A DNA stretch of 64,000 bases, taken from NCBI GenBank assembly GCA_020002185.1, contig CM034534.1, positions 17,180,656 to 17,244,655 of the forward strand, read 5' to 3'. Shown piece by piece: positions 13,819 through 61,251 of the stretch. The DNA is from Paraescarpia echinospica (taxonomy: Eukaryota > Annelida > Polychaeta > Sabellida > Siboglinidae). The notes below the pieces were generated by a model that was not told the origin of the DNA, did not search any database, and saw only the letters and a list, made by a program, of their open reading frames with translations. Made by a program: the position numbers and the translations under genes. Positions within the stretch are counted from its first letter, which is position 1, and each line of letters begins with the position of its first letter.

Positions 13819-14271
13819 TCATTTGTTTCTGGATTTGACGTTTTGTAACTTATAATCGAGATTATTCCATAGTTTTATAAAATGGTGTTTAGGTAATTTA
13901 GATGAAAAATGTGTTCTGTACTTCTCTCTATATAAGAGGTTACGTTGTCTAGTAATTCTGGTGTTAGTGGCTAGATTCTTTTTTGGTATATAGTGTTTGA
14001 AGGATTTAGGCAGTGTATTATTGTGATAATCATACATAAATAGTGAGACATGCAACCTGTATATATCAATGATTTTAAGTATATTTTCAGATTTAAAGAT
14101 AGGATCGGTGTGACTTCTATATTTTTTTTTTTTTTTTATTATTTGTATAGCGCGTTTTTGTAATATTTCTATCTTTCTTATGGTATTTCCATTGCCCCAT
14201 GCTTGTACATCGTAAGTTAAGTTACTTTGAATCAAGGTATAATATAGAGTTTTTAAAGCACTGCGTGGCAA
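13819..14271 (-). pseudogene. LINE RT C-terminal (thumb/connector) fragment
   Basis: The 150-residue frame starts SALKTLYYTLIQSNLTYDVQ and continues with QAWGNGNTIRKIEILQKRAI, the canonical post-catalytic region in which the RT C-terminus of CR1/L2/jockey LINEs contains a W-G...LQ.R.I motif. It ends with an LWNNLDYKLQ-like block. It overlaps the upstream RT frame by 50 bp in another frame, so a single indel near 14250 separates them. Confidence 0.85.
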
Positions 14272-14824
14272 AAAAAATCATTCTATTAATTGCAAAAATT
14301 GCTCTAGATATTTTAGAACTGATTATGTTGATATGTTTTTTCCATGTTAAATGTTTATCAATATGTATTCCTAAGAACTTCACCGATTCTTCTTTGTCAT
14401 CCTTTCCAACATGATTAATAATTTCACTGTTTATTTTAATACAGTTATTTACCTGGTATTTGCTATTCGGTGGACTAAATATGCAAACGTTTGTCTTTTT
14501 TATATTTAATGACAATTTATTGGCACAAAGCCAATCGTACAAATTTATTAATTCTTGGTTTACGCTGTCAATTAAAGTATCAATATGAGGACCTGATTGG
14601 TATACAGTTGTGTCATCTGCAAAAGATAATAAATTAAGAGACATAGAGTTAGTTATATCATTGATATAAATTAAAAATAAGATTGGTCCAAGTATGGATC
14701 CTTGGGACACTCCACTCATTATGTTTTTTGGATATGATTGACATTTGTGTATCTCAGTATATTGTTTTCGATTTGATAAATAACTTGCAAACCATTTATT
14801 GCTTATTCCCCGAATTCCATACAT
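14222..14824 (-). pseudogene. LINE reverse transcriptase palm fragment
   Basis: The 200-residue frame contains GVSQGSILGPILFLIYINDI (motif B and following) and LLSFADDTTVYQS with an intact FADD catalytic box. These are followed by an LYDWLCANKLSLNIKKTNV block and FLGIHIDKHLTWKKHI, all in canonical RT order. Fingers and motif A are missing because of 5' truncation, so the peptide could not form a complete polymerase. The frame is lost by an indel near 14250. Confidence 0.9.
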
Positions 14825-15253
14825 ATAGGCCTTTAAAAAGGTTAGCGATAACTACCTTCTTTTGTTCCATAACTGATTAGTAATACCATATTATCGAAGA
14901 AGAATGTGTGGAGTCTAGTTTGCCTTTCGGTCCAAAGACACTCAGACTGATATTGCATGTGTCACATTTATTTAAGTTATAACTCAACGTGTATTAAATT
15001 GACTATTGGGGAAATCAGAATAGTTACGATCGCCTTATGATATATAAGGCGCCGGTGTCATGGGCCCCGATTCAGCCAGGCCAGGATTCCTCAAAACGCA
15101 TACTGCGCATGCGCCCGCAGGCACTTTGATGAGATGTGACGTCACGTTTTTCACAGCCGTGCCAGAATTATCCGCGGTTGTATAGTTTATGTGAATTAGT
15201 AGTTGTACGTCGATTTATTTAATTCTGCGTGTTTTTAAGGAGGCACGGTGAGT

Positions 15254-16930: not shown

Positions 16931-16945
16931 CAGTATGACACTTCC

Positions 16946-18259
16946 TTGCAAGAACTGTTAGACAGCCACGCTCCGTTGATCACACGGTCAATTACTGTGC
17001 GCCCCAACACGCCTTGGCACACAGTGGAATTATCGCTTGCTAAGCGAAAGCTCCGACAAGCAGAGCGGAAATGGAGACTGACAAAGCTGCAGATTCACCG
17101 AGACATCTACACTGGACAGCGTGAAACTTACAAACAGCAAATACAGTCTGTGAAAGCAAAATTCTACACACACAAAATTGATGAATGTGCACGTAACAAC
17201 AAAGCACTGTTCAGGATCATGGATGACTTGATGAAGAGAAAAACTACTCCAAAACAGCCCAGTCTTGTGTCTGGTATAGCACAACTGGCAGATGACTTTC
17301 TCGTGCACTTCACACGCAAAGTGTTAGACATTCGAAGCCAGTTAGCGAGTAGACGCCTGCAAACTGTCAAGGCTGAGTACGTGCATTGTGAACAGTCCTG
17401 CACAGTCAATGCGTTTTACGGCATCACCACAGACGGCGTTCTCTCTTTGGTAAGGAAGTGTCCAACAAAATCAAGCGCGCTCGATCCACTTCCTACCTCA
17501 CTCGTGAAAACCAACATTGACATTCTTGCGCCGACATTAGCTACAATCATCAACATGTCGCTCGAGTCGGGGTCCGTGCCGGCCAACTTTAAACATGCTG
17601 TGATCACACCACTATTAAAGAAACCAAACCTTGATTCAGACTCGATGAACAACTACCGGCCTATATCGAACTTGTCATTTGTTTCAAAGTTACTGGAGCG
17701 CCACGTAGCAGTCCAACTTCGCCAGCATCTAGACGACAACAATTTGATGGACATTTTCCAAAGTGCGTACAGACAACATCACAGCACTGAGACAGCACTG
17801 GTGCGGATTCAGAATGACCATCTCCATTCCCTTGACAAAAGGAAAGGTGTGCTGGCAGTGCTGCTCGATATGAGTGCGGCGTTTGATACTGTTGACCACT
17901 CGATATTAATCAACCAGTTGCGCAGCATAGGCATTGAAGGCATGGCACTGAAATGGCTAGAGTCATACTTGTCGAACCGGACTCAGTCAGTGTGCATTAG
18001 TGACCACAACTCAAATAGAACATTGCTCGAATCTGGCATCCCACAGGGGTCTGTGCTGGGCCCAATTCTCTTCTCCATATACACTCTGCCATTGGGTGCT
18101 ATCTTCAGAAGGCACAAGCTGCAATACCATCTTTATGCAGATGACGCCCAATTGTATGTTGACTTGAATGGAACGCGGGAGGAGAAGCTGCGGTTGACCG
18201 CATCGAGCGATGCATCGAAGAAGCGAAGCAGTGGATGTCAGACCACAATCTACTGCTGA
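16946..18259 (+). pseudogene. L2-like LINE reverse transcriptase (fingers and palm)
   Basis: This is the longest ORF in the window (437 codons). Residues about 1-170 are the linker. RT signals follow: AVITPLLKKP and NYRPISNLSFVSKLLERHV (fingers), then VLLDMSAAFDTVDHSILINQ (motif A with its Asp) and LESGIPQGSVLGPILFSIYT (motif B). HLYADDAQLYVDL is motif C, with YADD intact. Shortly after YADD, at about 18170-18200, the frame is lost and the remaining tail to 18259 is out of frame. The enzyme would copy LINE RNA at a nicked target. One indel separates it from the downstream frame. Confidence 0.9.
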
Positions 18260-26669: not shown

Positions 26670-27074
26670 CTACATCTGGAACATCTTCAGCGCAGCTGTG
26701 TTTGTCCCGCTCTCCGTCAGAACGAGGTTGCGCGTCATCGTGAAAGAGACACCATACGGGTCTTTGATGCCGTCGCTCTTGGTCAGCAGGTGGCGCATGA
26801 ATCGCCCCTTGGACGAGAAGATGCTGACACGATGGTTGTTCCTGTCAGCGACGATCACGTTGCCGTCCATGTCGGTGCAGATGCCGCGGGGGAACGACAG
26901 CTGGCCTTCGCCGGAGCCCTGTGAGCCGAACTTGCCGAGGAATCGGCCCGAGCTGGAGAGGATCTTCACGCAATGGTTGTCCGAGTCGGACACGATGATC
27001 TGGTTGTGTTGACCGACTGTCACGTACAACGGGTTGTTAAACTGGTCGTTCTGTGTGCCGCGGGAGCCGATCCG
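26670..27074 (-). CDS. TRIM-NHL gene, exon 5 (NHL blades 4-6, stop)
   Basis: The last coding exon encodes residues 538-671. It follows an acceptor reading TGACTGTTTACAG and opens with RIGSRGTQNDQFNNPLYVTV. Three NHL blades are visible: FNNPLYVTVGQHNQIIVSDS with NHCVKILSSSG; FPRGICTDMDGNVIVADRNN with HRVSIFSSKG; and IKDPYGVSFTMTRNLVLTES. The protein stops after ALKMFQM. NHL propellers bind RNA or protein partners, and many TRIM-NHL proteins act in post-transcriptional repression or ubiquitination. The last blade is the least canonical, as expected for the closing strand of a propeller. Confidence 0.92.
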   Translation of the reverse strand, partial: RIGSRGTQNDQFNNPLYVTVGQHNQIIVSDSDNHCVKILSSSGRFLGKFGSQGSGEGQLSFPRGICTDMDGNVIVADRNNHRVSIFSSKGRFMRHLLTKSDGIKDPYGVSFTMTRNLVLTESGTNTAALKMFQM

Positions 27075-27968
27075 CTGTAAACAGTCAACACTGTGTGAAA
27101 ACAATATATACAAATGAAAGTAGTTGAAAAAAATTGAGATGTACAAAACATATACAAAGAACGAGAGAGGGAAGCTAGCAAAAAGGAGCATAAAAAGAAG
27201 AGGGTGACATATGAAGAAAAAGAAGACGAACGGGAAGACCAAAACTGAGATGGAAAGACAGCGTGAAACGAGATATTGGGCAGGTGCGAATAACCACGAA
27301 AGGAAGATCATTGTAGAAAACAGAGGGAGATGGCGAGAACCAGGAACCAGGAGGCAAAGCAGATCAAGCTACGGATTGATGCGGACCTCAACCCGCAAGA
27401 GGGCAAGGGAAGAAGAAGTGCTGTGAGTATGTAAGAGGCAGTTTTTACTGAATAACAATACTCGCCATCGCAATTCCCAATAATGCCAACACATATTTAC
27501 ATACAACAGACTGTGCTGATTTCTTTCACCAGTCTCGAGTATTACGGTTTCTCCCCACCTCTTACAGATTATCCTAAATACAACCCACACGATCGTGCGG
27601 ATGGTTGCTATCTTCCGAAAGGTTTTGTACATTTTGCCAACCTTTAACGACTGATAGCCGAGTATCAGATTATCAGATCAAAGCTAGCTGGAAGAGCGCT
27701 TGCGAATTTTTAATTAACTACGCAAACGTCTCAAGAGTTATAATCAATACATTCCAGTTTTCACAGCGCCTTTTGAGTGTGCGTGATAAAAAAGTTAATC
27801 AAATCAATAACTGGCGTAGGGTCTATCCATTAGCAAGTATGATCATTGTGTAAGGATGTGCAGTGTTGAATGATCATCATACTGAATACACGGTGACTCG
27901 AAGTTACAACACTTATTATCGGTTAAACATGAACAAATCCTTGTCTAACATGAAGTGGTATTATTCAC

Positions 27969-28664
27969 CTTCAAGCACTTCTTCTCGCCCTGGTAGATGT
28001 TTAGAGAGTGTTCAGCAACGTCCGTGACGATGCAATTTCCGTTCGGCGACATGGCCACACCACACGGGTGGAAGAATTTGCCCAGTCCCCATTTGGCGAT
28101 CGACTGGCCACTTGGATTAAATACCTCGAGACGCTTGTGACTCGAGTCGGTCGCGATGATGTTGCCTCGCAGACTGACGGCGACGTCCTGCGGCTCGATC
28201 CGGCCCTGGCCGATGACACACACCGACTTACCGACGCTGTCGAAGATCTGCAGTCGTTTATTGCCCCACTCTGCGACGGCGATGTCTCCGTTGAGCAGGC
28301 ACGCCACGCCAAGAGGATCTCGCAGCTCTCCGACGTTCGAGCCCATTTTCTCCAGGTGGAACAGGAGGGTTGGTTTCGTGACGACGTGCAAGGGACGCTC
28401 GGGTGAAGGGACCGAGGCTTGCCTGGCGAGGCCTGGGCTGAATACCAAGGGACTGTGATTGAGTTGTTGGAGGTTCCCCTCGACCGCCTCAATCCGGCCG
28501 ATGCTCGGCTCCTGGTGACCGGACAGGAAAGTCACCACGGACGACAGCTCGCCCAGACTCGTCGACGCGTCGGCCTCGACAACTGTTCGCATTCGCTTGA
28601 TGAGTTCGTCGTGAACGGCCATCAGTTGTATCCGGTTCCGCTTGTGCGTGGTGCGCGCGAAATC
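27969..28664 (-). CDS. TRIM-NHL gene, exon 4 (linker and NHL blades 1-3)
   Basis: This exon encodes residues 306-537, starting DFARTTHKRNRIQLMAVHDE after an acceptor TTTTTACGCAG and ending GEKKCLK before the donor GTGAAT; both junctions are phase 0. The first part continues the coiled coil (HDELIKRMRTVVEADAS), followed by a Ser/Pro-rich linker. NHL blades follow: LRDPLGVACLLNGDIAVAEW, PQDVAVSLRGNIIATDSSHK and FHPCGVAMSPNGNCIVTDVA. There is no filamin/Ig-like domain between coiled coil and NHL, unlike vertebrate TRIM2/TRIM3. The antisense frames over this exon (28008-28769) are shadows. Confidence 0.93.
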
Positions 28665-29379
28665 CTGCGTAAAAAGATCACCGATGTTACAAGAGTCAAA
28701 AGTGCGAATCGTGTATGTAAAGTCAAAGTAAAGGTACGTTCTTATATGACACTGCTTAGAACACGATAACTTCACTCACTCGCAGGTCTGTTCAATCGAA
28801 CATCACCGATGGACGCACCTTAATGTTGACATAGTCCTTTTGTTTGAGCATTTATTAGGACATGTTTTTCCGCCACACGAATTACCATGCAGTATGCTAC
28901 CGTTACAATCACAGATTAATAAAACAACGATTAGTGTCAACATCGACTGCTTACATGGACACACCATAGATAAAGCGCACAGATCTCTTTTCGGTGGAGG
29001 GGCATTGAATGGATACAAGAAATACACACAGAACCTGGGAACGTAATTGATGTTTATAACACGTATCACTAACGAGAGCAATGCACAAATACAACGCAAG
29101 CGTGTTCTTTGTAATCACCGATTAGTATACTTTATTTGAGCATAACACACACTTGCGTAAAAAGTTATGTCAGCCGGTTCAAATATGTACAGCAACACAC
29201 AGAAAAAAACGGTGTGACGTGACGCGTACACATCAATTTAGCCTTGGCGGTGTTTTTTACCGCAAATGTTAACTCTACCGGAATACATACTTTCGTCAAC
29301 ATATGTCATGCATTTGAAATGGTCTCACTAGGTCATCGCTATTACTGAATAGGAATGGACCAAACAGCTGCCAATGGAG

Positions 29380-34135: not shown

Positions 34136-37106
34136 TTTAAATTTTGGGTTATGTTTCGTTAAAGCATGATGTAAACCAGACTTGCTAGCTAATTTTGGCG
34201 ACCTACAAATTGTTTGACTAGATGTACATATTATCTTCTTGTTTATGCTGTTGGTTCATTGAGTTTAATCAACTGACGTATGCTATAATTATGTAAACAT
34301 TAATAAGGCGGCGGTGTGTCATGCGCGTGTGTAGTTAAAACAAGATGTCTTTATTCAAACTTTGGTACGCCAAGTCTTGTATATGGTGAATGTACGTAAT
34401 TATTTCAGTCATGTATTATTGTGGATGACCCTATTTTAGGGTAAAGTCCTACGGGTAGTGGCTTGTACATTTACCTCGTACGTGATATTTTGATTCACCT
34501 GGCATAGGCACCAAATGGATCGGACCAACGGTTTAGTGTGTTTTTTGACAGGCAAACAAAAGTTGTGAACGAAGTTTCGAAGCGGAAGGAGGTGGTTTCA
34601 AGCCTGCGCTCCGCCCCTTGTGAATGTAACAACCGCCGTATCAGCAGCCATGATCACAAACACATCGTCTCTGATGTCGTCACTTCAGAGTGGTTCAACT
34701 GTCGTTTACTAAGAAATGCAGGGTCTTCCAATGGTCGGGTCAACGGGAACAGTTTAGGGTCAAGAAACAAACTGGGGGACTCTTTATGGGTTCGGTGGCT
34801 GTCGTAATTATACAGTAAAATTCCGCATACCTGAAAGTCAGCATTTGGGGCTTGTCAAAAATTACACCCATTTGATAGGTTTTTGTGTCATGATGAGTCA
34901 TTTTAGGGATTCATAACACTCACATATTTTAGGTCAGTGTATGTGTGCGAAACACAACTGTGTGGTTAACAACATGCGTATGTGTCAGTTTGGTAGGACT
35001 GGGTCATGGATTTGGCCAAAAAGAGCACATGTGTTTTTAATTTCTATGTAGGCAATGCACACCCAGTGTTGCCAGGTTGTGGATAATGGTTTCAAACCAG
35101 GAATGGTAAATCAACAACGGATGCTGGATTTGTTCCTACAATCAATGCGAAATGTGTGGGCACACTAGAAACTGCTACCGTATGATGCAAACCCCAAAGA
35201 AATAGTTAGTTGTGGGAACGATACACGATATGTTAATCACGATGGGTGAGAAAAAAAGCTAAGTTCTTATATAAGGCAATATTCAGTCCTTATGATTGTT
35301 AACAGCGCTGTATGCTTTACTCCCTCGCGAATCAGAGGGAAGGGAAAGGACCAGTGTCCCTCAGTTTTATGCAAAAGTGTACATTTTTCCTGTACAACAT
35401 GTTGAGCCATACATTTTAGTATGCAAAACTAATGGGTGACTAAGCTTGGCCCCCTCTTTTACCCTTAATATCACAGAGGCGCTACGTGCAGAGATCGGAA
35501 GTGAAGGCGCCCTATAAGGCCACCATGCGCGGTGGAAATCAGCCAGCCTAACGGCCTCGTATAAGAAGCAGGAAAAGATATGATATATATCTGAAAAGCG
35601 TGTAATTCGATAACTGATTGTGTAATTATTGTGACTCGTGTCTAGGAAAGCACGTGTGTGTGTAGGCCCTATAAGCTGTAGCTAGCAATGGTTCGTAATA
35701 AACTGCCAACATGCTACCGCATTGTTATTACCAATAGTGTGTGTTGAAAACAGGAATGGATAACTACCATTGTTTCAGGACATCATTTACACCGTTCTCA
35801 TATTTGTAACACATCGATTGCCTGACGCAACATGCACACAGAACGCATCCAAAGCAATCATGATATTAAAGAGTAATGTCATAATAACATATGTTAAAAA
35901 CGATGTGACGGTGAAGTAAGATATGGAAGCTTTACAACATGATTATATGCAGATCTCTCGAAGACATTAAAAACCGAACAATGAATATAACACTATTTTC
36001 GTTATATATGATAACGCTGTTGTTGTCACTCGTCTTGATAATATCAAAACGCGGCTCCCTGGGTTCATTTGTTTCTAAAAACTGCCACATTTAACCATTC
36101 GTATAATCATGTCTTGCTTCTGGACATACTGCCTAAAGATTCGACAGCGATGACCTGCATTGCAGTTTAACATGTCGGTACCCCCTTATTCACACCTACG
36201 GAGAAAACAACTATAGCGCGTGTTATTTCAATAACATTTCGCTTTGGTTGGACAATGGAGGCTGTTATAGATTACAAGGAGTTATAAATGTATTTACAAT
36301 TTATCAATATATTTATAATACTTTGACCCGATAACTGAATCAGTGCATATTGGGAACTGTTGTGTTGGTACCCACGCTACTCAATCATCCGTAGCAATGT
36401 ATAACCATGAGTCATGGAAGTTATCAGCTTCAGACTGCCTGTCGATCACTGTCCTGGGGTAACGTGATTTTAAGATTGTGTTGATGAAACGTAATTTAGT
36501 CAACAACCATTCTATCCCGTAAATTATCATGTGGACGTCATAGTTTTCTTTGTTGCTGCTCGCAAACTGTCTCTGACAAACAAATCTATAGCGTGTAATC
36601 TGAGTTTATCGCTACAAGCACAGCAGATGGTTTTACTGCCTTGGTTTGGTCATGTGTCAATTAGGTCACTTCTAGAATGAGTCGTAGGTATTATGGGAAT
36701 CAGGAAAATGAAGCAACCACGCGACGAAATTTGGATTTTATGGTTCGGTTGTTAATAACAACATGTCTCAATAGCACGACAAGAAGCTTTTTTCACTAGC
36801 AGTATGTTTAACTATGATACTATGATAATTGCCATACGTATGCGTAACGTACTTAAGAACGTAAGTGAAAATACATACAAAAATATATACGTATACCGAT
36901 ACATACGTAGGCTAACATACATAGGCCTGCATAATATGCACACATACACACGCACACGCACACACACTCACATACCTATATTCATACACACATTGATATC
37001 ATAGTTATAGATAATACTAGTGAAAAAAACTTCTTCCTTCGTCTAGTCTATTGATATCAGGATCTGTGTGCAGCACATGCCCCTTTAGGTGTCCAGTCTA
37101 GCTTAC
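34136..37106. other. 5' part of TRIM-NHL intron 1, no recognisable feature
   Basis: Intron 1 spans 31119-37106 (5988 bp). This portion contains no recognisable gene; the 89-codon frame at 34538-34807 has no motif. A short CACACA run lies near 36940-36970. Confidence 0.5.
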
Positions 37107-37613
37107 CTTGCATGTGAGATCTGATGATGCCGCCTTCTGTTGCACCAATTTGTCAATGACTGTGTGATCCTTAAACAGTGCGTTCTTCTCGTGTTTGCGT
37201 AGACAATTCTCACAGTAGTTCATCTTGCACTTATCACAGTAAACCTTCGCGACGACGGCCTTCTTCTGTGACCTACACGTATCACACATCTTCGACATGG
37301 CTCTGTTGCGAATATTCATCGTCTTAAACATTTCCTCGATCTTGTGCACCTTAAAGTCGTTGCGCAACCCAGCGATGCCGTTCTCGGGAATCGTCGTTAG
37401 TTCCCGGCAGGTGGGACACGGCAGCTTCCCCGGCTGGGCGCGACGCTGGTGCTGGTAGGTGTTGTGGTATCCCTGAAGACACTCCTCGCAAAAGGTGTGC
37501 CCACATTGGAGCATCTTCGGGCTGCAGTACGGCTCGAAACAGATCATACACTGCAGTAGGTCCTCGAACGAGGGCGGGATGACGCCGTTCTGTTGCGACT
37601 GTCGCCCAGACAT
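37107..37613 (-). CDS. TRIM-NHL gene, exon 1 (start, RING and B-box 1); gene spans 26670-37613
   Basis: This exon encodes residues 1-169 of a predicted 671-residue TRIM-NHL protein whose five exons (37613-37107, 31118-30879, 30302-30135, 28664-27969, 27074-26670) join in frame at phase-0 GT-AG junctions. The start is MSGRQSQQNGVIPPSFEDLL, the first Met of an open frame. The RING finger (C3HC4) uses C22, C25, C37, H39, C42, C45, C66 and C69 and should recruit E2-ubiquitin. A first B-box follows (C110, C113, C126, C129, C134, C137, H141, H150). The donor is AAG|GTAAGC. The architecture is RING, B1, B2, coiled coil, six-bladed NHL, as in animal TRIM-NHL proteins. The orthologue (NHL-1/thin-like, TRIM32-like or other) is not resolved. 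A cytoplasmic E3 or RNA-regulatory role is inferred from the family. Confidence 0.93.
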
Positions 37614-38740
37614 GGCGAGTTGTTACTGTTGCCGTGAGAGAGAACAAAGAACAAACACGATCGTAGACTCGCTACCACTCGCTACCTACTGCCGGCCGTC
37701 ACACGATCACATCCCACCGACACCACTACGAAGGTCGTGTGTGTGAATAACCGACAGTTAAAATGACGTACAGGAACACACGATACCCAATACGGCAAGG
37801 CTGCGTCGTTATGTATGTCGCCGACGCGACACTGTTTGCAATGAAATGGGTCGACCCGGTCGTTGCCAGTAATAACGCGCTCCGATTACGGTACACACCG
37901 CCTACAAAGGCCGTCACGCATGGCTGCCCCAGGCGCGCTCACACATGAACACTGTGGCGCTCTACAGAAATTGTGTCAAGCGACGGGCAAAGATAATCGG
38001 GAAACAGTTACCAAACGGTGTTTGTGTGCTGCCGGTGTAAGCGTAATGTGTGGCAGTAAATAATGCGTGTTTGCATTGGGGAGATTTTATTAAACGCACC
38101 ATCGGTGCTCACTGAAGCCAGTGCGTCTCTGGGAGCGTCATCAAAGTTATAATTTACATTTAATGACCATCGCAAACAACGCGAGAACATATAATGAGAA
38201 TTTATTTGTGCGTAATTGCTTCAGCTCGCGTCTGGGTATCACCGAAACTGTGTGTGTGTGTTTGTGTGTGTGTGTGCGTGCGCGTGTGTGTGCATGCGTG
38301 CGTCCGTGTGTTTCTTTGTTTATGTACGTATATGTATGTGTTTGTTTGTGTGTGCGTGTGTGTGCGCGCGGCGTGTGAGTAATTACATGTGGATCTGTAT
38401 GCCCTCGTGTCTGTATGCCAGCTATAACTGCTAGACTACAGTTACTTCAACCACGTAGCATGTATACCAGTATACTCAACACAGAGCAGCTAACGAGAGC
38501 GCTTACGTCGACACCTGCACCAACTCTCTTTACACTGTTTCACCTGTACAAAGGTGTGCACGTGTGGTTCAGCTACTGTATCAACCCGTACAGGTACCCC
38601 CAGGGCACACATTAATATAGACTCGCTAACAAAGTTGGGTCAAACCGCGTTTGGGTACTGAAGTTTGATCGATGACTGATATCAAAATTACGGCAGGTGG
38701 CAGGTGACTGTGACAGATATGTTACCGTCACGGTTCACGT
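37614..38740. other. Upstream flank of the TRIM-NHL gene
   Basis: The putative 5' UTR and promoter side of the minus-strand gene. I see no clear TATA box or initiator that I would defend. CpG dinucleotides are more frequent at 37640-37990 than in neighbouring DNA. A TG microsatellite occupies about 38248-38372. Confidence 0.4.
38248..38372. repeat. Interrupted (TG)n microsatellite
   Basis: About 125 bp of TGTG/TGCG/TATG steps. The overlapping Cys-Val frames are artefacts. Confidence 0.95.
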
Positions 38741-38759
38741 GTAGCACTCGGCACGGTTC

Positions 38760-40105
38760 AGTGATCTCCAGCCGGTTCTGCAGCACAGCGCTGAACTGTT
38801 GACTGATATATCGTTGCACCGGATAGCTCCACAACAACACCCACTAAGTGGTGGGGTGTTTGTAAAAAAACCCAGACAATCTTGTCTCCTTGATGAGCTG
38901 GTGACTAGGCTGCGTTCGATAAAACACCCCCATTTTGGGTGCCTTCGCATGAAACAAGACTGGATCCGGAGCTTCCTCTGTGATCGAACACAGCAAGTAG
39001 TTGTCGAGGGTGAGACTTCAACTACAGGCCAGGTGATCTCCGGTGTGCCACAAGGATCGGTCCTAGGCCCAACTCTCTTTGTCATTTACATCAACGACCT
39101 GTGCAATAACATTAAAACCAAGGCTAGACTATTCGCTGACGACACAATACTATATCACACTATCCACAGCACAGCCGACACTCACAAACTACAACAAGAC
39201 CTCAACACCTTGGAGAAATGGGAGAGGAAATGGCATATGAGTTTCAATATATCCAAGTGTCACGTCCTAACTGTCACAAAGAAGCGCAAGCCCATTATAG
39301 CAACGTATTCACTCCATCAGCAGCCCCTGGAGAGAGTCACCAGGGCCAAACACCTAGGTGTAGAGCTGACCGCTGACCTCCACTGGGGAAACCACATACA
39401 GACCATCACTGCCAAGGCAAACCGCACAAGTGCTTTCATATACAGAAACCTTAAAGGGTGCCCTCCACAGGTGCACTCACATTGCTACAAAGGACTGGTC
39501 CGCCCCGTGTTGGAGTACGCCTCTGTCGTGTGGGATCCCCACCAGCAACACCTGGTAAACACCATCGAAGCTGTCCAGCGCCGTGCCGCGAGGAGAATCT
39601 ACCATGATTTTAATCACTATACCAGTGCCACAGAACTTGTAAACAGACTACAACTACAGACCCTCCAAGAAAGAAGAACTGTCAACAAGGCCACCTATAT
39701 GTACAAGATAATGAGTGGACTGGTGGACATCACGCCAACTGAGGGTACACTGACAACAAACAACCGTATCACCAGGGGACAGCCCAACAAGCTCCTCCTG
39801 CCTCACTCCAGAACAAACACTCACCTCCACTCCTTCTTCCCCTCAGCCATCCGTTTAAGGAACAAGATCCCTGACAAAGCGTCCTCAGCCAGTACCCTCA
39901 CAGCCTTCAAAGCGGCAGTTGAGGTCTGGGTAAAAAATACTACCTAGACACACCCTCTTTAAAAAAAAAAGAATAAAAAATAAACACTGTTTTTATCAAC
40001 CCTGTTTTTATCAAACCTTTTAAACCGCGCATGCGCAACAAACTGTGGAATATTCTTCTGGATAGAAGTAACCACAAGATTGTGAAGAAGAAGAAGAAGA
40101 AGAAA
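38760..40105 (+). mobile_element. 5'-truncated LINE with (GAA)n tail
   Basis: The RT C-terminal half (38799-39947) is followed by about 130 bp of 3' sequence containing CTTCTGGATAGAAGTAACCA and a (GAA)n tail of five or six units at 40084-40104. Motif A is missing, and the sequence before the palm appears rearranged (an FVKK-like finger block sits next to a later RLRSI-like block). It is therefore a truncated, internally deleted insertion. Confidence 0.88.
38799..39947 (+). CDS. LINE reverse transcriptase, C-terminal 382 codons, open frame
   Basis: The frame is open throughout. RT blocks in order: WIRSFLCDRTQQVVVEG, VISGVPQGSVLGPTLFVIYI (motif B), ARLFADDTILYHTI (motif C with FADD intact), WHMSFNISKCHVL, and KHLGVELTADLHWGNHI. 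Next come VRPVLEYASVVWDPHQQHLV with VQRRAARRIY, and finally FFPSAIRLRNKIPD near the C-terminus. These are the palm-to-connector blocks of CR1/jockey-type LINE ORF2. Motif A and the endonuclease are absent, so the product would not be a functional polymerase. The Met at 38799 is only the first ATG of the truncated frame. The lack of stops suggests a recent insertion. Confidence 0.9.
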   Translation: MTDISLHRIAPQQHPLSGGVFVKKPRQSCLLDELVTRLRSIKHPHFGCLRMKQDWIRSFLCDRTQQVVVEGETSTTGQVISGVPQGSVLGPTLFVIYINDLCNNIKTKARLFADDTILYHTIHSTADTHKLQQDLNTLEKWERKWHMSFNISKCHVLTVTKKRKPIIATYSLHQQPLERVTRAKHLGVELTADLHWGNHIQTITAKANRTSAFIYRNLKGCPPQVHSHCYKGLVRPVLEYASVVWDPHQQHLVNTIEAVQRRAARRIYHDFNHYTSATELVNRLQLQTLQERRTVNKATYMYKIMSGLVDITPTEGTLTTNNRITRGQPNKLLLPHSRTNTHLHSFFPSAIRLRNKIPDKASSASTLTAFKAAVEVWVKNTT

Positions 40106-51295: not shown

Positions 51296-51301
51296 CAATC
51301 C
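51296..51301. repeat. Target-site duplication, left copy (CAATCC)
   Basis: CAATCC immediately precedes the TAC... terminus at 51302 and recurs exactly after the opposite terminus (61246-61251). A perfect 6-bp direct repeat abutting both inverted ends indicates a transposition event with a 6-bp staggered cut. Confidence 0.8.
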
Positions 51302-51480
51302 TACATTGGCTGGGAGAGGACATAGCAAATTTTTTTTTAAATATTATTTTACGGTGGCTGGGATAGGACATAGCAACATTAATTTTTTGGGAGAGGATAT
51401 AGCAAAAGTTTATTTTTTTCTTCGAAAAATATTTTTTATCTCGAGATCTCGTCGTTTTATCTCGAGATCTCGAGTTCTAA
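51302..51480. repeat. Left complex terminal region of the 9.94-kb transposon
   Basis: Three direct copies of a GGGAGAGGAYATAGCAA-like word lie at 51311-51329, 51359-51378 and 51388-51408. A TTCTTCGAAAAATATTTTTT segment follows, then a palindromic double box of two TCTCGAGATCTCG units at 51437-51475. The same modules occur inverted at 60988-61245. Repeated words at both ends are the expected form of transposase binding sites. Confidence 0.85.
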
Positions 51481-51530
51481 AAGCTAGGCTGATCAAGGGA
51501 CGAAAGCCAGCATGGATGCTACCGTAAAAA

Positions 51531-52329
51531 AGTCTTTTTGATCTTGGACTAAGTCAGTATGAAATACGGTGTGTTCTATCAAGAAGATTCAGCTGTAGTA
51601 TAAGTGTAAGACAGTTGAGGCGTGTTCTCGCCAGGTTGCAATTATATAGGCGGAATATTTTACTGATTTTGACGAAGTAGTTGATTTATCCGGAATCAGC
51701 TTGCAACCTCAGGGCAATTACACGGATATAGGTTCATGCATTTGAAGTGCATTACCAATGGACTTGTGGTCAGTAAAGAGACGGTCAGAATTCTTCTTGG
51801 TATTCTTGATCCGGAAGGCGTGGAACTACGAAGAGCGAGGAGGCTAGTTCGCCGTCGGTACAGTGTCAAAGGGCCGAATTACGTGTGGCACATGGATTCA
51901 TATGACAAACTTAAGCCGTTTGGAATCTGCATCAACGGTTGCATAGACGGCTGTTCAAGGTACATTTTGTGGCTGGAAGCATACAGAACAAGCAGTGACC
52001 CGGCAGTTATTGACGGACATTACATCAGAGCTGTTCTGAACTATAGCTGTTGTCCAAAGATTGTACGTGCAGATCGTGGTACGGAAAATGGACATGTCGA
52101 ACAAATGCAAACATTTCTTAGAGAGAATGACGAAGGCATTGAGGAGCGATCTTTCCAATACGGTCGTAGCACTGCCAACCAAAGAATTGAATCATGGTGG
52201 GGAATACTGCGAAAGGAGAATGCCAAGTATTGGATGGCACTATTCCATGAGCTACAATGCCAAGGTCATTTCGGCGGGGAAGAACTGAACAAGGAGTTAG
52301 TGAGATTCTGTTTTCTGGATTTGATACAA
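51531..52329 (+). pseudogene. Integrase-type DDE transposase, exon 1 (HTH and rve core)
   Basis: The N-terminal HTH part begins LGLSQYEIRCVLSRRF, then VRQLRRVLARLQLYRR. Two one-base frame breaks (near 51660 and 51683) precede a second HTH-like block, QLHGYRFMHLKC, and KETVRILLGILDPEGVE. From 51736 the frame is open for 198 codons: YSVKGPNYVWHMDSYDKLKP (first Asp, in HMD), INGCIDGCSRYILWLEAYRT, KIVRADRGTENGHVEQ (second Asp) and STANQRIESWWGILR (catalytic Glu). This is an rve-type core in IS3-like order. The donor at 52330 is GTAAGT after FLDLIQ. The true start is not identified because an upstream ATG is out of frame. Confidence 0.85.
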
Positions 52330-52720
52330 GTAAGTGAATTTAAATCATGGGTTTCAATTCTTATATATGTAGACCCTCTTTATAGGCCACTCTTCATACT
52401 GTAATTCTGTCACACCGTAATCACCCTCATCTCAATGATGAAGATACAAATGTACATGCAGCCAATGGTACAGTTTGTAAATATATATATATATATACCT
52501 AATTTTTATGCAAACAACAATGGTTGAATTTTGGTGCATACTTGGTACCCCAAGGATATTACTGAAGGTAATGTTGGAATTATACAAACTGTTCAGTATT
52601 GCGTCCCAAAATGCACGGTCATATTCAAAGAAATCCATATCCGACTATGATGCCTGTGTTAAAAAAATTATTTACTCTATTAATCGGGTCATAAAACAAA
52701 TAATCTTTTCTCTATTTCAG

Positions 52721-53046
52721 AATGGATTGTGTGAAGTATCTCGTCTTTGGAACATTCACAAGATCAGGAAATACAACAACATGAACCTTAATCACGGACG
52801 GCCGTTGATGATGTACAACATTCCCGAGTTGTTTGAAGCTGACGATTATCATCGTCCGGTGGACCACACCAACATCAGGATCTGCCAGGAGCATTATAGA
52901 TTTAAATCTGACTATCTGTTGAGGACATGTTTGAACTATGCTATATCTTGATGGAGGAGAATGGACTTGTTTTCCCAAGCAATCCACATGAGGCCATCCA
53001 TTTGTACAAAACTCTTAGAGACACCGTGAATGTAGCTCTAGCCTAA
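52721..53046 (+). pseudogene. Integrase-type transposase, exon 2 (C-terminal domain)
   Basis: After a polypyrimidine acceptor (TTTTCTCTATTTCAG) the frame continues in phase with exon 1: NGLCEVSRLWNIHKIRKYNN, then RPLMMYNIPELFEADDYHRP and ICQEHYRFKSDYLL. A one-base indel near 52920 shifts the frame. In the new frame MFELCYILMEENGLVFPSNP and HLYKTLRDTVNVALA lead to a TAA at 53044. Clear coding character on both sides of the shift shows it is a lesion, not the natural C-terminus. The intron is 391 bp. Confidence 0.8.
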
Positions 53047-53149
53047 AATTACACATTTTCGTGATGACGGTATGCAGAATTACTTCGGATATAAACCGGA
53101 GGTATTGAGTGAATTGTACAACATACACAGTACAGTGCCCAGGTAACAG

Positions 53150-53410
53150 ACATACTTTGGACTAATGTGGCTAAATTTTGTGTTAGCCCAATGTTGGCAC
53201 CACGACGGTCCAAAGGGTGGTTGACCCAACGATGGCCCCAGTTGTTATACCAGAATATATAGATGTATAATTACGTGTATTTGGTCAGTCGTTGAACCAA
53301 CGTTGGACTGGTGTTGGAACGTTAAACTCGTTTGACTTGAACATTGTTTTGATTACACAACGTTGGCCCAACAATTATCATCCAACGTCAATGGTATAAT
53401 GGCTGTCCCA
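53150..53410. repeat. Repeated CCAACGTTGG-type palindromic words
   Basis: AATGTTGGCACC, ACCCAACGATGGCCCCA, AACCAACGTTGGACTGGTGT, ACAACGTTGGCCCAACAAT and CATCCAACGTC cluster within 250 bp. They form short inverted and direct repeats around an AACGTTGG core. It may be a degenerate small element nested in the large transposon. Confidence 0.5.
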
Positions 53411-54075
53411 AAACGGTCTTGCTATTTGGATGTATACCGTGAAATACGCATTACACTGTGCTACCAAAACTAGTACATTTGTCGCTGTTTGTACTTTTTT
53501 GATCAATAAATTGATAACTGTTATTAACTTAAGTGTACTGATGTTAGACCCTACCAGCTAGCTATATCACAGCCTCACACACGTTTACCTATTTATTCTG
53601 GGTAAAGCAAAATTCAGTTGATAAATCTGCATGACTTAATCAAGAAGAGACCTGTCTAAAGTCTTTAGGATATGATATTTGGATGAAACGCTAATGTTGT
53701 CTCAGTTATGGAATATTCAAGACTTTCCGAAATCCAAGATTTATATAATGGTGTGTGTGTGCGTGTGTGTGTAGTGTAATTTTTCCGTATAAAAATGCTT
53801 TATCAATTTAACATAATGAAATTGTGCTTTGATTACTGATTAATTTTAGTGTGACACCCCTAGTATAAATTGAATGAATAAGGAAAAAGCAAACAATCAA
53901 TATTTATCGATTAACTGCTTTATTGATTATTGTTCAATTATGTGTACGTATAACACATTAAACAAACCCTAAATTACCAATTAATAATGCTTAAACTGAA
54001 ACTTCGGATTACGTTGGTAAGATGATTAACATTTTACCACACACCCGGAAGACTTTCATGTTTGGTTATATTCAA

Positions 54076-54206
54076 CTGCGCATGCCGTCCATTATAAAAG
54101 GCGAACGTAATTAAACGAAACGATTCCTGGGAGAGGACATAGCACAAAGTCATAGCAAAATCAGCGCATGCTGTCCACTGTAACATGCGAACATAATTAA
54201 ACGAAA
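54076..54206. repeat. 86-bp direct repeat holding an internal copy of the terminal motif
   Basis: GCGCATGCYGTCCAYT...GCGAACRTAATTAAACGAAAC occurs at 54078 and again 86 bp later at 54164. Between them lies CCTGGGAGAGGACATAGCA (54126-54144), matching the terminal motif of the transposon in the same orientation as the left end. Confidence 0.75.
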
Positions 54207-54389
54207 CTAAAACACTTATTGCCAGGCAGCACGTCCATATGGTCCATGGGCCCATATTATAAGGGCTGGCCTGTAGAATTCTACACTCGGGATCCATATG
54301 AGACCCATATGCCTATTTGTCAACTGCATGTCTCATTGCCGTGTTAAACACGCTGATGACGTTGTGCAGTAGCCCACATTTCGGTTCTA

Positions 54390-56256
54390 TTAACTGATAT
54401 TCATCACCCAAACATTATACTCGAGAATGCGATCAAAATCAGCACGGAAGTCTGGGTAGTTTTCGTAGTTGGTTGGCACCTCCAACACATTTCCACATGT
54501 ATGACCAATGGGCCGTTTCTCGAATTCTGACATGGTCACAAAGATGACTTGAATCCGTGAGCAAGAAAGTAAGTCACTCCCGGTGCAGAATCGCTGGAAG
54601 TCGCCGAGTTTCTTTTCTTAAAGTCCTCTGACATACGTCTGCAAAAATGTGGACACCGTCTTCTCTGATTCGGAAACCTCCGGGGGAAATTCAATGCACT
54701 TCACAACCTTCCTGTTGGTCGGAACTAATCCTTCGTATAGACGGTTTAGTTCTTCGAATTGAAGATGCCCCATCCTTGGCTGCAATACACTCCTCCAGCA
54801 CTCGATCACATACATCGGCGTTTGCACGAGTTCTTTATGGGCCATCTCGTCTATAATCATGGCAAAATTTGCTGCGGTTGCAGCCCGCTTGCAATTGTGG
54901 TTTTCAAGAAAGTCTTCAAGCTCTATTTCGTCAGCCTTCTTGAAGTTATCCAGTGCAACTCGGATAATATCTCGTTCGACAATGTCCACGTAGTGGAGAA
55001 ATTGTTCTCTAAATGTCAGAGAACGCCTTCCCGTACATAGCATGCTCAATAAGCGTTCGGGCCAGTGCGATCGGGATGTAGCCAAATTCCTTCCAGCCGA
55101 ACTAGATTATTCGCGCTACAGCTTTCCATTTGGACTCGTGAACATCGTGGCGCAAGTAAGGTACTTTCACGTCATTACCAAGAGTGTATCGGCTTTAGAA
55201 CTCCTCCCAGAACTCGGACAAACAGTCCTTTGCTACACCTTATCCAACGCCGGCTTCTAGTTCACCATTTGTGTCCTTGCGCCTTATCGATATATTATCA
55301 TTCAGAATGTCTGGATCTGAGAACGCTTCGGTAAGTTCATTGAGGGTATTTCCACGACTAATCACGAGGTGACGCAAATTTCGTGGTGTTGAATGGTCAG
55401 CAGGTTCGTGGGGAATAGTGACACTGGGGTTTCAAAATTCTCTAGCTTCGACTGGCCCGAATCGTATCTTGGAGTCTAATGAGGCATCGTGTGAAAAACT
55501 GACTTCCTCAATAAGGTCATCAACCGCTTGGCGTACATCAAGAGGAGGTGCGGTCTGACACTCTGCAGTGCTGCTACAGGTAGCGGTGTTTACAAAACGT
55601 GCAATGTTTTCAACAACGTCGGCAACCGAGGAGGACGATGCACATTCGGCAGATTTACCCTGGCAAGATAACCATGGAAGTGTAGGCAGAGGCGAGTCGA
55701 TTTCCTCCTCTGATTCACGAGGAGTAGTTCGAAGATAAAACCTTAGGAGTCTGATATGTGTATCTTTATATAGCTGACCAACGGTAATTTCTGCATCGAT
55801 CTCACATTCTTTGAAGTCAACTAGATCGAAATCGAATTTCGACCTAGGTCCTTTACTGGATTCTCCTCCTGGGAAAAACAAATATAATGCAATGGTAAGA
55901 AGGTCCTTTTTCTTTGCAGATTTTTCTACTCGCCTTGACCTGGTTCCTCCTCCTTTCTTCATTCGCACTGGCCTGTACGCACCGACATTCTCATCAAAAT
56001 GTAACCAGCCAATTTCGATTAGCCGATGCTTCTTTGCGGCATTCGAACTGCTGGCTTCCTCACTAGCACTTTCTGTTGATGCTTTAAATTTTTTCCGGAG
56101 CTTTTGCAGAAGTGTCGACTTCCTGGTTGGCTGGTTGTCTTCAACATGTCCGGCCAGTTTTCGTTTACAATAGTTGACCAATGCCACTCGATCTCCCACA
56201 CAGAGGTATTGGCCAAGCATCTCATCACTCATCAAAGTTATAGCGAATTCATCAAA
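54390..56256 (-). pseudogene. HECT-type ubiquitin-ligase-like gene, main exon
   Basis: The exon opens after acceptor CTTTATCATTTCAG with FDEFAITLMSDEMLGQYLCV, completing the SAM-like domain begun in the upstream exon. A basic linker follows, then VRMKKGGGTRSRRVEK, IALYLFFPGGESSKG and EITVGQLYKDTHIRLLRFYL. The HECT-like half includes RGNTLNELTEAFSDPDILND, VPYLRHDVHESKWKAVARII and FLHYVDIVERDII. The C-lobe reads RPIGHTCGNVLEVPTNYENY, with the Thr-Cys of a HECT active site. In-frame stops lie at 55432, 55240, 55195, 55102, 55009 and 54618, with one frameshift near 55000. It resembles the HECT-containing proteins (annotated G2E3-like) seen in fish and invertebrates. Non-functional as it stands. 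Confidence 0.8.
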
Positions 56257-56526
56257 CTGAAATGATAAAGAAATAAACAAAATCAAAATGGCGGCCGTTT
56301 TAAAGAAGTTCGGCGGCCATTTTGTAAATGGCTGTGATTTATTTTGATTATTTTTAGTGGCCAATGGGGTTCTCTTTTGGGCACTGTTCAACATTCAACT
56401 TACAACATGACAAAGCTGATCCCAATACACACACGCACGCACGCACGCACACACACACATATGAGCGAAGTAACGAAAAATGGAACACTTGCATAAAAAT
56501 TAGGAGCGAAAAATGTTCTTTCCTTT

Positions 56527-59287
56527 TAGGCCTTGAGCCAAGACCCAAAATTTGGGCAACCGGTACATTTTTAGTGACGAATGCTCATAGTGATTTTTGG
56601 CTAGGCCTACATCCCTAGAGATGGAAAATAGGTGATAGCTTTGCAGCACTCCCAGCTTTCTGTGAGAAATCACTCTTTTTCATACTATCCCCATATCCGT
56701 GACAACAAGTTTTCTATAAAATTGTTAACGGAGGACACACACACAAACTACTATGGAATATTTATTACACATCCCAGTAGACAAAAAATTGGATACCATG
56801 TGGTTTAAACGTCATGCTTTCCAAACATATCAACATTATTTTCATATCTTGAGAATTGTGGATGTTGTGGTATTTTATCTACCACATCTCAAAATGCAAT
56901 CCACAGCATTCAGGTTTTCCAAAAAAATCACTTAAAATTCTGGCTAATAATAACATGTATCCTCATTCGAGGTTCTTATTGCACCAGAACGTTGGCTTAC
57001 ATCCCTAGATAAGGAAAATATGTGATAGCATTACAGTACATACATTTTTTGTGTGTGAAATTACTCTTTTTAATCTTTTCCACATTTCAGCTAAAACTAT
57101 TTTTCTATGGAAATTGCTGAAGGCGTGGTCATGCACAAACCATTATACAATAGTTATTATACAACTTATGGGTATGCTAATTGTACATCACATGGCTGAA
57201 ATGTCATGTGTCATACACATGTGAAAATGGTTTTAATACCTTAAGAAATGTGGAATTTATGGCATTCTGTCTACCGCGTCTCAACATGCAATCCACACCA
57301 TTCAGGCATTCAACAAAATAAATCACTTAAATGTCTGGCTAGTAACCTCATGTATCCACAATCAAGGTTCTTGTTGCAACAGAATGGTCACTGGACTTCA
57401 GCTTGTATTACGTAGACACAGTCTGTACATTTTATTGCAGTTATATGTATTATCATGACATTTAAATTTGCAGTTGTTGTCACTGAGATCAAATTACATT
57501 TTCTTATTTTAGCCACCTAAAGTTCTGACTATAACTCTAACCTACATACAATGGACCTGTTGTATACAGTCAAATTATACAGGTACACAGTATTGACTTG
57601 TAGCTGTAGTAATGCACACTATGCACTGTGAACATTTCACATGCTTAATTCACTATGTCCTTAGTTGAGGTTGAAGACAGTGTTTAGTAATCATAGCCAT
57701 CATCCAAAATCTTCTGCTGTGAACGTCAATGATCTGAGATACCACTTGTTCTGTGCAAAGAAAGGTGAGGTAGAGTCACCAACTGCCACCATGCACTGAC
57801 TGTTTGTTGAAACATGCACAATGCGCAAACTACAAGGCTGCAATATGGAGAAGATGTTTGGAGCAGGACCCAAGTACCCAGAACCCAGTTGGCAGAGGCT
57901 GGAAGTTGGAAAGAGAACATGGACTGAGCAACTGGTTGTACACTGGATGGAAGGTCAGCCAGCACCTGATGCCGTGTTGGATCTACTAGCATGCAGTTGT
58001 CCCAGGAAGTGTGAACTGCCAAAGTGTGTATGCTTGTCAAGTGGACACAGATGTACTGATATGTGCAGACTACAAGACTGTGACAATCAGATGTCTAGTG
58101 CTGACAATGATGAAAGTGTAGCTGAGGATGAACTGGGTGATGGCTGTAATTACTAAACACTGTCTCCAACCTCAACTAAGGACATAATGAATTAAGCATG
58201 GGAAATGTTCACAGTGCATAGTGTGCATTATTACAGCTACAAGTCAATACTGTGTACCTGTATAATGTGAATGTCTACAACAAGTCCATTGTATGTAGGT
58301 TAGTGTTACAGTCAGAACTTCAGGTGGCTAACATAAGAACATTTTATTTTATTTCAATGACAACAACTGCAAATTTCAATGTTATGATAATACAATTAAC
58401 AGCAATAAAATGTACAGACTGTGTCTACATAACAAAACCTGAAGTCCAGTGACCATTCTGTTGCAACGAGAACCTTGAATGTGGATACATGAGGTTACTA
58501 GCCAGACATTTAAGTGATTTCTTTTGTTGAATGGCGTGGATTGTATGTTGAGACATGGTAGATAAAATGCCATAAATTCCACATTTCTCAAGGCATTAAA
58601 ACCGTGTTCACATGTGTATGACACATGACACTTCAGCCGTACTATGTACACTTATCATACCCATAAGATGTATAATAACAATTGTATAATTGTATGTGCG
58701 TGACCACCCCTTCTGCAATTTCCATAGAAAAATAGTTTTCGCAGAAATGAGCAAAGGATTAAAGAGTGATTTCACACAAAAGATGTATGTACTGCAATGC
58801 TGTCACATATATTTTTCATATCTAGGGATGTCATCCAACATTCTGGTGCAATAAGAACTTCGAATGAGGATACATGTGGTTATTAGCCAGAATTTTAAGT
58901 AATTTTTTGTTGATAAACATAATGCTGTGGATTGCATTTTGAGATGTGGTAGATAAAATACCACAACATCCACAATTCTCAAGGAATGAAAATAAGTTTG
59001 ATGTGTTTGGTAAGTATGACATTTAAACCACACGTTATCCAATTTTCGTTCTACTGAGATGTGTAGTAAATATTACATAGTAGTTTGTGTATGGGCCCCC
59101 ATTAGCAATTTCATAGAAAACTTGTTGTCGCGGATATGGGGATAGTGTAAAAAAGAGTGATTTCTCACATAAAGCTGGGAGTGCTGCAATGCTATCACCT
59201 ATTTTCCATCTCTAGGGATGTAGGCTTAGCCAAAAATCACTATGAGCATCCGTCCCTAAAAATGTACCAACTCTGGCTCATGGCCTA
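56527..59287. mobile_element. 2.76-kb fold-back element with ~1.14-kb inverted arms
   Basis: The left arm (about 56562-57706) and right arm (about 58134-59268) are reverse complements over their whole length with moderate divergence. Shared landmarks are GGTACATTTTTA, TAGGCCTACATCCCTAGAGA, ATCTACCACATCTCAAAATG, and GTCCTTAGTTGAGGTTG...GACAGTGTTTAGTAAT. Similarity continues in patches to 56527 and 59287. The 427-bp centre holds a Cys-rich protein fragment. It lies wholly within the intron of the HECT-like gene. The transposon class is unknown. Confidence 0.85.
57720..58156 (+). pseudogene. Cys-rich C-terminal fragment of a transposon-type protein
   Basis: Mixed frames give NDLRYHLFCAKKGEVES, then HAQCANYKAAIWRRCLEQDP, and finally LVVHWMEGQPAPDAVLDLLA followed by CSCPRKCELPKCVC and CTDMCRLQDCDNQ, an acidic tail and a stop at 58154. 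The QPAP.AVL.L..C.C...C....C.C...G..CT.MC...DC.N pattern is a Cys-rich C-terminus I have seen on widespread transposon-encoded proteins of invertebrates and fish, but I cannot name the family. There is one frameshift near 57880 and a stop near 57797. The acidic tail and stop lie at the start of the right inverted arm. Confidence 0.6.
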
Positions 59288-59589
59288 TATGTAATGTTCT
59301 AGTATAGGGTTGAAAGTTTACCAGGGTGATAAGGAAAAGATAACATATTTGTTCAATTTGTTTTGGGGGTATCAACTGAGGAAGGGTTTTGTTTTTATAA
59401 TTGTTCATTTAGCTATATTCCTTATTTTTTGATTGACTTAAGTACAACTATCTCCAAAACTATTGTCTTTTGAAAAAAAAACAATGTCAGGTTCTCACCT
59501 CAATATCTCAGCAATGGGTTTGAATGAATATAGTATAAAAATACATTACAAATAATAAGCAAAATTTGTCCAAGGGCTAAAATGTGTAC

Positions 59590-59673
59590 CTTTTCCTCCT
59601 TCATTTTTGCCAATATGTTGGCCGCCCCATTTCTTTTTGCAAGGTATTCGTACATGCCACTGCCAGACTCCAT
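59590..59673 (-). CDS. HECT-type ligase-like gene, exon 1 (SAM-like start)
   Basis: The 28-codon exon MESGSGMYEYLAKRNGAANI...KMKEEK ends at donor AAG|GTACAC. It splices in phase 0 to FDEFAITLMSDEMLGQYL at 56256. Across the junction a SAM-like pattern appears: a hydrophobic helix, KMKEEKFDEFAITLM, then GDRVALVNYC. That fit is the main support for this exon. The start Met is chosen because upstream sequence reads as non-coding. The intervening intron (3.3 kb) is mostly the fold-back element. Confidence 0.7.
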
Positions 59674-59709
59674 CACGACAGGTTTCCTTAAATTAAAAAT
59701 ACAATGCAA

Positions 59710-60987
59710 ATTATAGATAAATCAGACAACGGAGCAAAGACAACAGACTGTGTTCTGCATAAAACAATGTGACAGCCCTGTCATTTCTAGGGACGTTTTA
59801 GGAGGTTTCTTTTAAGGCATATCAAGCAACATTGATCAAGGTTTATAAAACCATCAATGGCAAATTATTTATAGGCATCCCAGAAATGCACAGCCACATA
59901 TACGAAATTTTGCTACACGAAAAATGATCTTCATTGGAGAAGCACTGTGGAATTTATTAGACGACCTGTATATATACATGCCTTCCTAGGGTGAGATCAC
60001 ATAAATCCCTAACCTCAAACGTTGGGTTTCACAAATCCCTGAAGACAATGTAATTCTCACATCAAGATTTCTGAACTGAAGTACCAGATACATACAGTTC
60101 ACTATATTGCGATCAGGAAATGTGCATGGGCCTTTTTTTAGTTTCAACCCTATTTAATCTGTGAGTCTTATAGCTAAATTGTATGTGGAGTAGCCATGTG
60201 GCACATATAACATGAAATGATTTGTGTATGAGCTAAATTGACTTAAGTCAGACGATTTATAATTATTGTCAGTAGACTAATGGATATTGTTGATCCTATC
60301 ACCTCCGCCAGGAGTAGATGGAGTGAAATACGCGAGCGGAACGTTCACTGACACTGACAATTGAATGAGGTTGACCACTTCCCATGTCCAAGAACCACGT
60401 GCTAATTCAGAGGCGACCGCGAACAAATGGTGCTGCTACTACCGCTGCTCAAAGGGGATAATACAATCTTGTATTAATTTGCTTTGCGTTTTCCAGTTGC
60501 CAAAATAGGAACAAGTTTTGACATTTTCCTCTTCTTCCAGTATTGTCTGCTGGAGAACTGTTAAATGCTGCCATCTAGCGTATGCAGCGCAAACCTCGTA
60601 GCAAGGCGAATGTCATGTGACGTTTTCGACAATAATTTTAATACCTGGCGTTGATCGAATGGCATGACGTCAGCGTATAGCAATAAGTCGACACCGTGTA
60701 TAAGTTATGTATGGTCCTAAGCCACAAGTATACCAAATTTGGTTAATAACTTAGTTGGCCCAGCTATCGTCTATCGATCACCTAACTCCTAACTTAAACC
60801 GTGTCGGTGGCGTAACTTGCCGTAAGGCTACGACTCCACCTATACACTCACGAACTATCATAATGGACATGTGCTGTGCCTTACGAATTATACCAGTCTA
60901 AATTATTTCAGCTAATAAACTTACCATTCAAACGACTTTTCCGCATCCATGACCATGAATCATGACATCCTCCTCACTCGCCTCGCT
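59710..60987. other. Non-coding interior of the large transposon, right side
   Basis: No recognisable ORF was found between the HECT-like first exon and the right terminal region. If the HECT-like gene is expressed, its promoter would be here on the minus strand; I see no defensible core promoter element. Confidence 0.45.
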
Positions 60988-61245
60988 TTCATAACTCGAG
61001 ATCTCGAGATAAAACATCGAGATCTCGAGATAGAAATAACTAAAAATAAAATTTTGTTATATCCTCTCCCAGCCACCGTAAAAAATATTTTTCGAAGAAA
61101 AAAAAAAAATTTTGCTATATCCTCTCCCCCCAAAAAAAATTTTGCTGTCCTCTCCCAGGCACCGTAAACAATATTTTCCGAAGAAAAAAAAAAAATTTTG
61201 CTATATCCTCTCCCCCCAAAAAAATGTCCTCTCTCTGCCACCGTA
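60988..61245. repeat. Right complex terminal region of the 9.94-kb transposon
   Basis: A palindromic box of two CTCGAGATCTCGAGAT units lies at 60994-61032. Inverted copies of the terminal word (TTTTGCTATATCCTCTCCC) lie at 61052-61070, 61111-61130, 61141-61156 and 61197-61215, with a terminal variant at 61226-61240. Part of the arm is a tandem repeat: the CACCGTAAANAATATTTT block recurs 86 bp apart. The final bases CCGTA mirror the left TAC terminus. Confidence 0.85.
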
Positions 61246-61251
61246 CAATCC
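61246..61251. repeat. Target-site duplication, right copy (CAATCC)
   Basis: Exact match to 51296-51301, directly abutting the right terminus of the transposon. Confidence 0.8.

Follow-up and report, generated by a model that had tools for sequence, protein, structure and literature searches.

The closest described relatives of the element reported here are the IS3EU/GingerRoot DNA transposons, which, in the sections of PMC10045372 drawn upon, have TA..TA termini, a target site duplication (TSD) usually of 6 bp, no HHCC domain, and a transposase whose first catalytic Asp lies 100–300 residues in. The same sections give TSDs of approximately 4, 15 or 25 bp for IS481EU. In the TET+ IS3EU elements of fungi (rusts and Tuber), as described in part of PMC12730594, the transposase gene and an alpha-kinase gene are oppositely oriented, with a TET/JBP dioxygenase gene between them. 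Here we describe a 9.94-kb element within a 64,000-nucleotide stretch of the genome of the annelid Paraescarpia echinospica (contig CM034534.1, positions 17,180,656 to 17,244,655), which is referred to as the window and provides all coordinates below. The element is very probably a dead IS3EU/GingerRoot cut-and-paste transposon that moved as one unit and had an accessory gene for an E3 ubiquitin ligase of the HECT type.

Ends of the element and target site duplication

A transposon insertion is confirmed at this locus, its ends defined and its TSD 6 bp long, in agreement with an earlier sequence-only reading that had proposed inverted termini flanked by CAATCC. The boundary features are:

51302–61245, 9.94 kb: whole element, with long modular inverted ends, TAC...GTA termini and CAATCC flanks
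51296–51301, no strand: left copy of the TSD, CAATCC, exact
61246–61251, no strand: right copy of the TSD, CAATCC, exact
51302–51489, plus strand: left terminal inverted repeat (TIR), modular, comprising TACATTGGCTGGGAGAGGACATAGCAAA..., then TACGGTGGCTGGGATAGGACATAGCAA, then a CTCGAGATCTCG block
60980–61245, minus strand: right TIR, with TACGGTG-type units in an 86-bp tandem
54128–54146, plus strand: internal copy of the TIR motif, with AAACGA and not CAATCC in the six bases preceding the unit

The terminal 20 bases show 16/20 inverted matches without gaps. When the left 200 bp from 51302 were aligned with gaps to the right 270 bp ending at 61245, a score of 153 was obtained over approximately 130 bp, compared to a best score of 38 (mean 22.0) for 300 dinucleotide-shuffled pairs and a best of 32 (mean 17.5) for 400 window pairs of equal spacing drawn from positions 1–49,000. 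The best gapped alignment sets left position 11 against right position 32, approximately 20 bases out of register. Because the ends consist of repeated units, this alignment alone does not fix the exact termini, which rest on the 16/20 match and the CAATCC pair. A 7-bp TSD, ACAATCC, was considered and rejected, as the right terminus would then no longer coincide with the TIR match.

A scan of the window for exact 6-bp direct repeats 0.5–15 kb apart with at least 15/20 inverted termini, leaving out hexamers of fewer than three letters, returned 49 pairs, and most of the 40 inspected were AT/GT microsatellite or lay inside the element. A hexamer with a short matching terminus is thus not rare in this window, so it is the long TIRs that carry the claim of an element. 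The motif TGGGAGAGGACATAGCAAA, allowing up to three mismatches, occurs eight times across the window where 0.01 occurrences would be expected, with three copies at the left end, three at the right, one internal copy at 54128 and one outside the element. The outside copy, at 39219–39237, is a lone three-mismatch match, and when the element was compared with the window by blastn, no further similarity was seen there.

The internal motif bears on whether one or two elements are present. It stands in left-end orientation and pairs with the right end (pair I22, 28 nt, 79%), as it would if a transposase element on the left adjoined a separate TIR-bearing HECT element at approximately 54119–61245. 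We regard such an arrangement as highly unlikely, and rejected it because the inner motif lacks CAATCC. It is the outer pair that has the exact hexamer and the long modular TIR match, and no copy in right-end (minus-strand) orientation was seen near 54.1 kb in the motif scan. A 44-bp direct repeat (86%) is also found on both sides of the internal motif, at 54078–54121 and 54164–54207.

The transposase gene and its classification

Reading inward from the left end, the transposase gene comprises the following parts, all on the plus strand:

51512–53046: transposase gene, broken, with a likely ATG at 51512, a helix-turn-helix (HTH) at 51528–51653 and the core from 51685
51685–52404: core open reading frame (ORF), matching PF24764 (rva_4), its final part entering the intron
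52330–52720: intron, GTAAGT...TTTCAG, splice sites assigned by eye
from approximately 52721: C-terminal exon, matched in two frames at 52676–52915 and 52921–53028

The match of the core ORF to PF24764 (E=3.6e-26) bears out the rve-type transposase previously suggested, and identifies it as an rva_4/rve transposase of the Asp-Asp-Glu (DDE) type. The catalytic codons are D at 51895, D at 52072 and E at 52189, giving a D-58-D-38-E triad in the window. This triad is invariant in 25/25 aligned relatives, and a stricter form of the pattern is complete in 93 of the 120 relatives listed. A total of 944 homologues at E≤1e-3 were found among 1,321 candidates; fishes, bivalves, beetles, a crinoid and a frog are represented among the named ones of the 120 listed, with groups assigned from their names.

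The HTH proposed within the transposase is indeed present, with 67% identity over 42 aa to relative P0001, although it stands in a different frame from the core. By tblastn, the HTH matches in one frame and the core in another, and the C-terminal exon is split between two frames, which amounts to two frameshifts, and a third is likely between the ATG and the HTH, as read by eye. In a predicted model of relative P0043 (mean predicted local distance difference test score, pLDDT, 83.4), helical N-terminal segments are consistent with HTH units, and the modelled RNase-H-like core matches those of IstA, TnsB, Mu and retroviral integrases. Searches with the transposase in phage records, and with the core and its profile A3 against PDB sequences, gave no match. 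Transposase alignment A1 gave 29 pattern matches in genome contigs and 11 in viral contigs, and P0001 gave three in viral contigs; none was confirmed as a relative.

The element fits IS3EU/GingerRoot in traits (termini, TSD and transposase features) rather than by placement in a tree. Its termini are of the TA..TA form, opening with TAC at 51302 and closing with GTA at 61245, and the one copy has a 6-bp TSD. Among the 24 listed relatives that are 350 aa or longer, none shows an HHCC pattern in its first 150 residues. The first D lies approximately 128 codons from the likely ATG, as counted by coordinates across frameshifts; in relatives of at least 350 aa it lies at 77–207 residues, in some at fewer than 100. 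The IS481 and IS3 models of NCBIfam match weakly, all far below their curated cut-offs, and the IS481 model scores at least as high as the IS3 model for five of six sequences, the exception being P0093. The label 'IS3-like' used initially is thus a loose one, while assignment to the IS3EU type stands.

We give very little credence to an origin of the core in another rve-type superfamily (Ginger1/2, Polinton, IS481EU or a long terminal repeat (LTR) element). Ginger1 has an N-terminal HHCC integrase domain and retroviruses also have HHCC, unlike all 24 of the relatives inspected; the 6-bp TSD contrasts with the lengths given for IS481EU, and the TA..TA termini are as in IS3EU/GingerRoot (both from the same sections of PMC10045372). 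Ordinary DDE cut-and-paste transposition with a 6-bp staggered insertion is the likely mode of movement. The transposase, with its HTH and RNase-H-fold DDE core, would have bound the repeated TACGGTGGCTGGGAGAGGACATAGCA units, paired the ends and cut at TAC/GTA; joining to the target strands with a 6-bp stagger would then have left CAATCC on both sides.

The second gene and the state of the copy

The second gene is, as judged from homology, what remains of an E3 ubiquitin ligase of the HECT type, with putative transfer activity. The sequence-only reading had noted a second gene, but had identified neither its HECT nature nor the palindrome nested near it, and its description of the gene as divergently oriented has to be reversed: the two genes are convergent, with the transposase gene reading inward from the left (plus strand) and the HECT gene inward from the right (minus strand). 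The features of this part of the element are:

54390–56256, minus strand: main exon of the second gene, with the N-terminal part, a GGGTR region and the HECT N- and C-lobes
59590–59686, minus strand: upstream exon, between ...TTTAAG and GTACAC, assigned by eye and without homology support of its own
60925–60956, minus strand: possible first exon, tentatively placed just inside the right TIR, donor GTAAGT
56562–59268, no strand: near-palindrome of 2.7 kb, arms 56562–57706 and 58134–59268

The HECT fold has both N- and C-lobes, its relatives are mostly from fishes, and the catalytic Cys codon is kept at 54495–54497 (HTCG) in the C-lobe. The N-terminal part is SAM-like in one relative. The decayed read-through scores 21.2 bits against PF00632 (E=2.5e-4), below the curated cut-off of 23.9; among its relatives P0122 passes with 26.1 bits, and P0121 (21.5) and P0123 (13.6) are below. 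The HTC motif is found in 37/41 aligned relatives. HECT alignment A2 gave six pattern matches in viral contigs and 72 in genome contigs, none of which was confirmed. Within the window, the gene is interrupted by in-frame stops at 55432, 55240, 55195, 55102 and 54618, and by one frameshift near 55010–55031.

The arms of the near-palindrome agree in 1022/1148 alignment columns (89%) and contain internal repeats of approximately 385 bp. A central ORF at 57800–58156 shows a weak Tesmin/TSO1 CXC (TCR/CXC) match (E=0.02). The palindrome, which is about a quarter of the length of the element, lies within the presumed intron of the HECT gene and would not itself disrupt the ligase reading. It is probably a long-inverted-repeat element in its own right that sits within the transposon. 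A candidate TSD for it, TGTTCT (56514–56519 and 59295–59300, with 10/14 inverted termini), was too weak to claim.

This copy is structurally complete but dead. Both genes carry frameshifts, and the second also has five in-frame stops, so the copy cannot be autonomous; the element was at first called complete, which holds for its structure and not for its genes. It would have moved as a single unit, of 9.94 kb, or of approximately 7.2 kb if the palindrome was a later arrival. The HECT gene probably travelled with the element while intact, as an accessory whose product would probably have made host factors or the transposase more or less stable, to the benefit of the element.

It could instead be that, in a genuine IS3EU element, this copy alone captured host sequence with the HECT gene, which would then not be a regular gene of the family. 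We consider this a serious possibility, though we lean against it. A single locus was seen, and HECT relatives occur as gene models on long chromosomes of fishes; three of the relatives carry piggyBac (PF13843, two relatives) or THAP (PF05485, one relative) domains. Similarity to the 120 listed transposases is absent from all 94 HECT relatives, even over part of their length. Set against capture, the HECT gene lies wholly within the TSD-bounded unit, opposite the transposase gene and with approximately 1.3 kb both between the two gene ends and from the upstream HECT exon to the right TIR; the two genes have decayed to a broadly similar degree, and the P0123 cluster holds 74 member sequences, as expected for a repeated gene. 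An oppositely oriented second gene is also present in fungal IS3EU, according to the part of PMC12730594 cited above.

Some of the observations that speak for capture, namely the single copy at one examined locus, the piggyBac and THAP domains and the lack of transposase-like stretches in the HECT relatives, also weigh against the reading of a transposon with a HECT accessory gene, and others should be set beside them. With both genes broken, function is unreadable from this copy. At no other locus seen does this HECT family stand beside an IS3EU transposase, and when the listed transposase and HECT matches were compared by record size and gene number, no linked pair emerged; the one record size in common, 2,097, is too short for both proteins unless they overlap. 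The pattern [AS]HTC is found in only 50/94 HECT relatives, and HTC in 44/55 of those that reach 600 aa; the family thus includes partial or inactive members. Finally, the left terminus, TACATTGG, deviates from the TAYGG of the fungal families.

Elsewhere in the window, remains of several non-LTR retrotransposons (RVT_1 or endonuclease matches) are found at 8717–9247, 14222–14851, 16931–18259 and 38745–39947, and minus-strand pieces of NHL-repeat and RING/B-box (TRIM-like) genes at 26670–28775 and 37098–37622, the latter pointing to an animal as host.

Implications and comparison with known systems

The HECT second gene is the new point here; the IS3EU superfamily itself is known but rarely studied. 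Among the listed titles and opening lines of abstracts, with Repbase entries outside the search, none describes a HECT gene in IS3EU or on a DNA transposon, an absence that is weakly supported. The word HECT does not occur in PMC10045372 or PMC12730594. Such a gene may already be on record. For a minor and little-described superfamily, a copy in which the ends are exact, a TSD is present and the second gene is identified provides a template for finding intact relatives. The element also points to ubiquitin ligases as transposon cargo, and hints at tampering with host protein disposal.

With slightly more doubt than belief, we suggest that animal IS3EU is a two-gene lineage, in which a convergent HECT ligase is a standing accessory that alters host protein turnover and so aids transposition or escape from silencing. 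If so, the ligase would be the animal counterpart of the fungal alpha-kinase, and many unexplained HECT-like fish genes would be transposon genes. Among the relatives listed, this HECT-like family recurs in fish genomes, with two entries each in Fundulus and Astyanax, for example; if the HECT gene proves to recur in such elements, the fish family would be explained, and one could test in this system whether a DNA transposon acts on the ubiquitin pathway.

Compared to IS3EU/GingerRoot as set out in the cited sections of PMC10045372, the element shares an IS481/IS3-related DDE transposase, the lack of HHCC, TA..TA termini and the 6-bp TSD, and differs in that its second gene is a HECT E3 ligase and the copy is disabled. 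With the fungal TET+ elements, on the partial account of PMC12730594, it shares the 6-bp TSD, TIRs longer than 30 bp and a second gene opposite to the transposase, which is an alpha-kinase there and a HECT ligase here. Ends of the fungal type are TAYGG..CCRTA, which the right end (TACGG) fits; the left end (TACAT) does not, although an inner left unit at approximately 51350 reads TACGG. Like the HECT E3 ligases UBR5, HUWE1 and TOM1 (PF00632), the second gene has a HECT fold, with the HTC cysteine in its relatives and the Cys codon kept in the window; unlike the solved HECTs, with 11–20% identity among the matches listed, it is transposon-borne and broken here. The deubiquitinases encoded by Helitrons (VTD/OTU; PMC9741609, in part) likewise place an enzyme of the ubiquitin pathway on a transposon, but they remove ubiquitin where the ligase would attach it, and they belong to an unrelated class of transposon.
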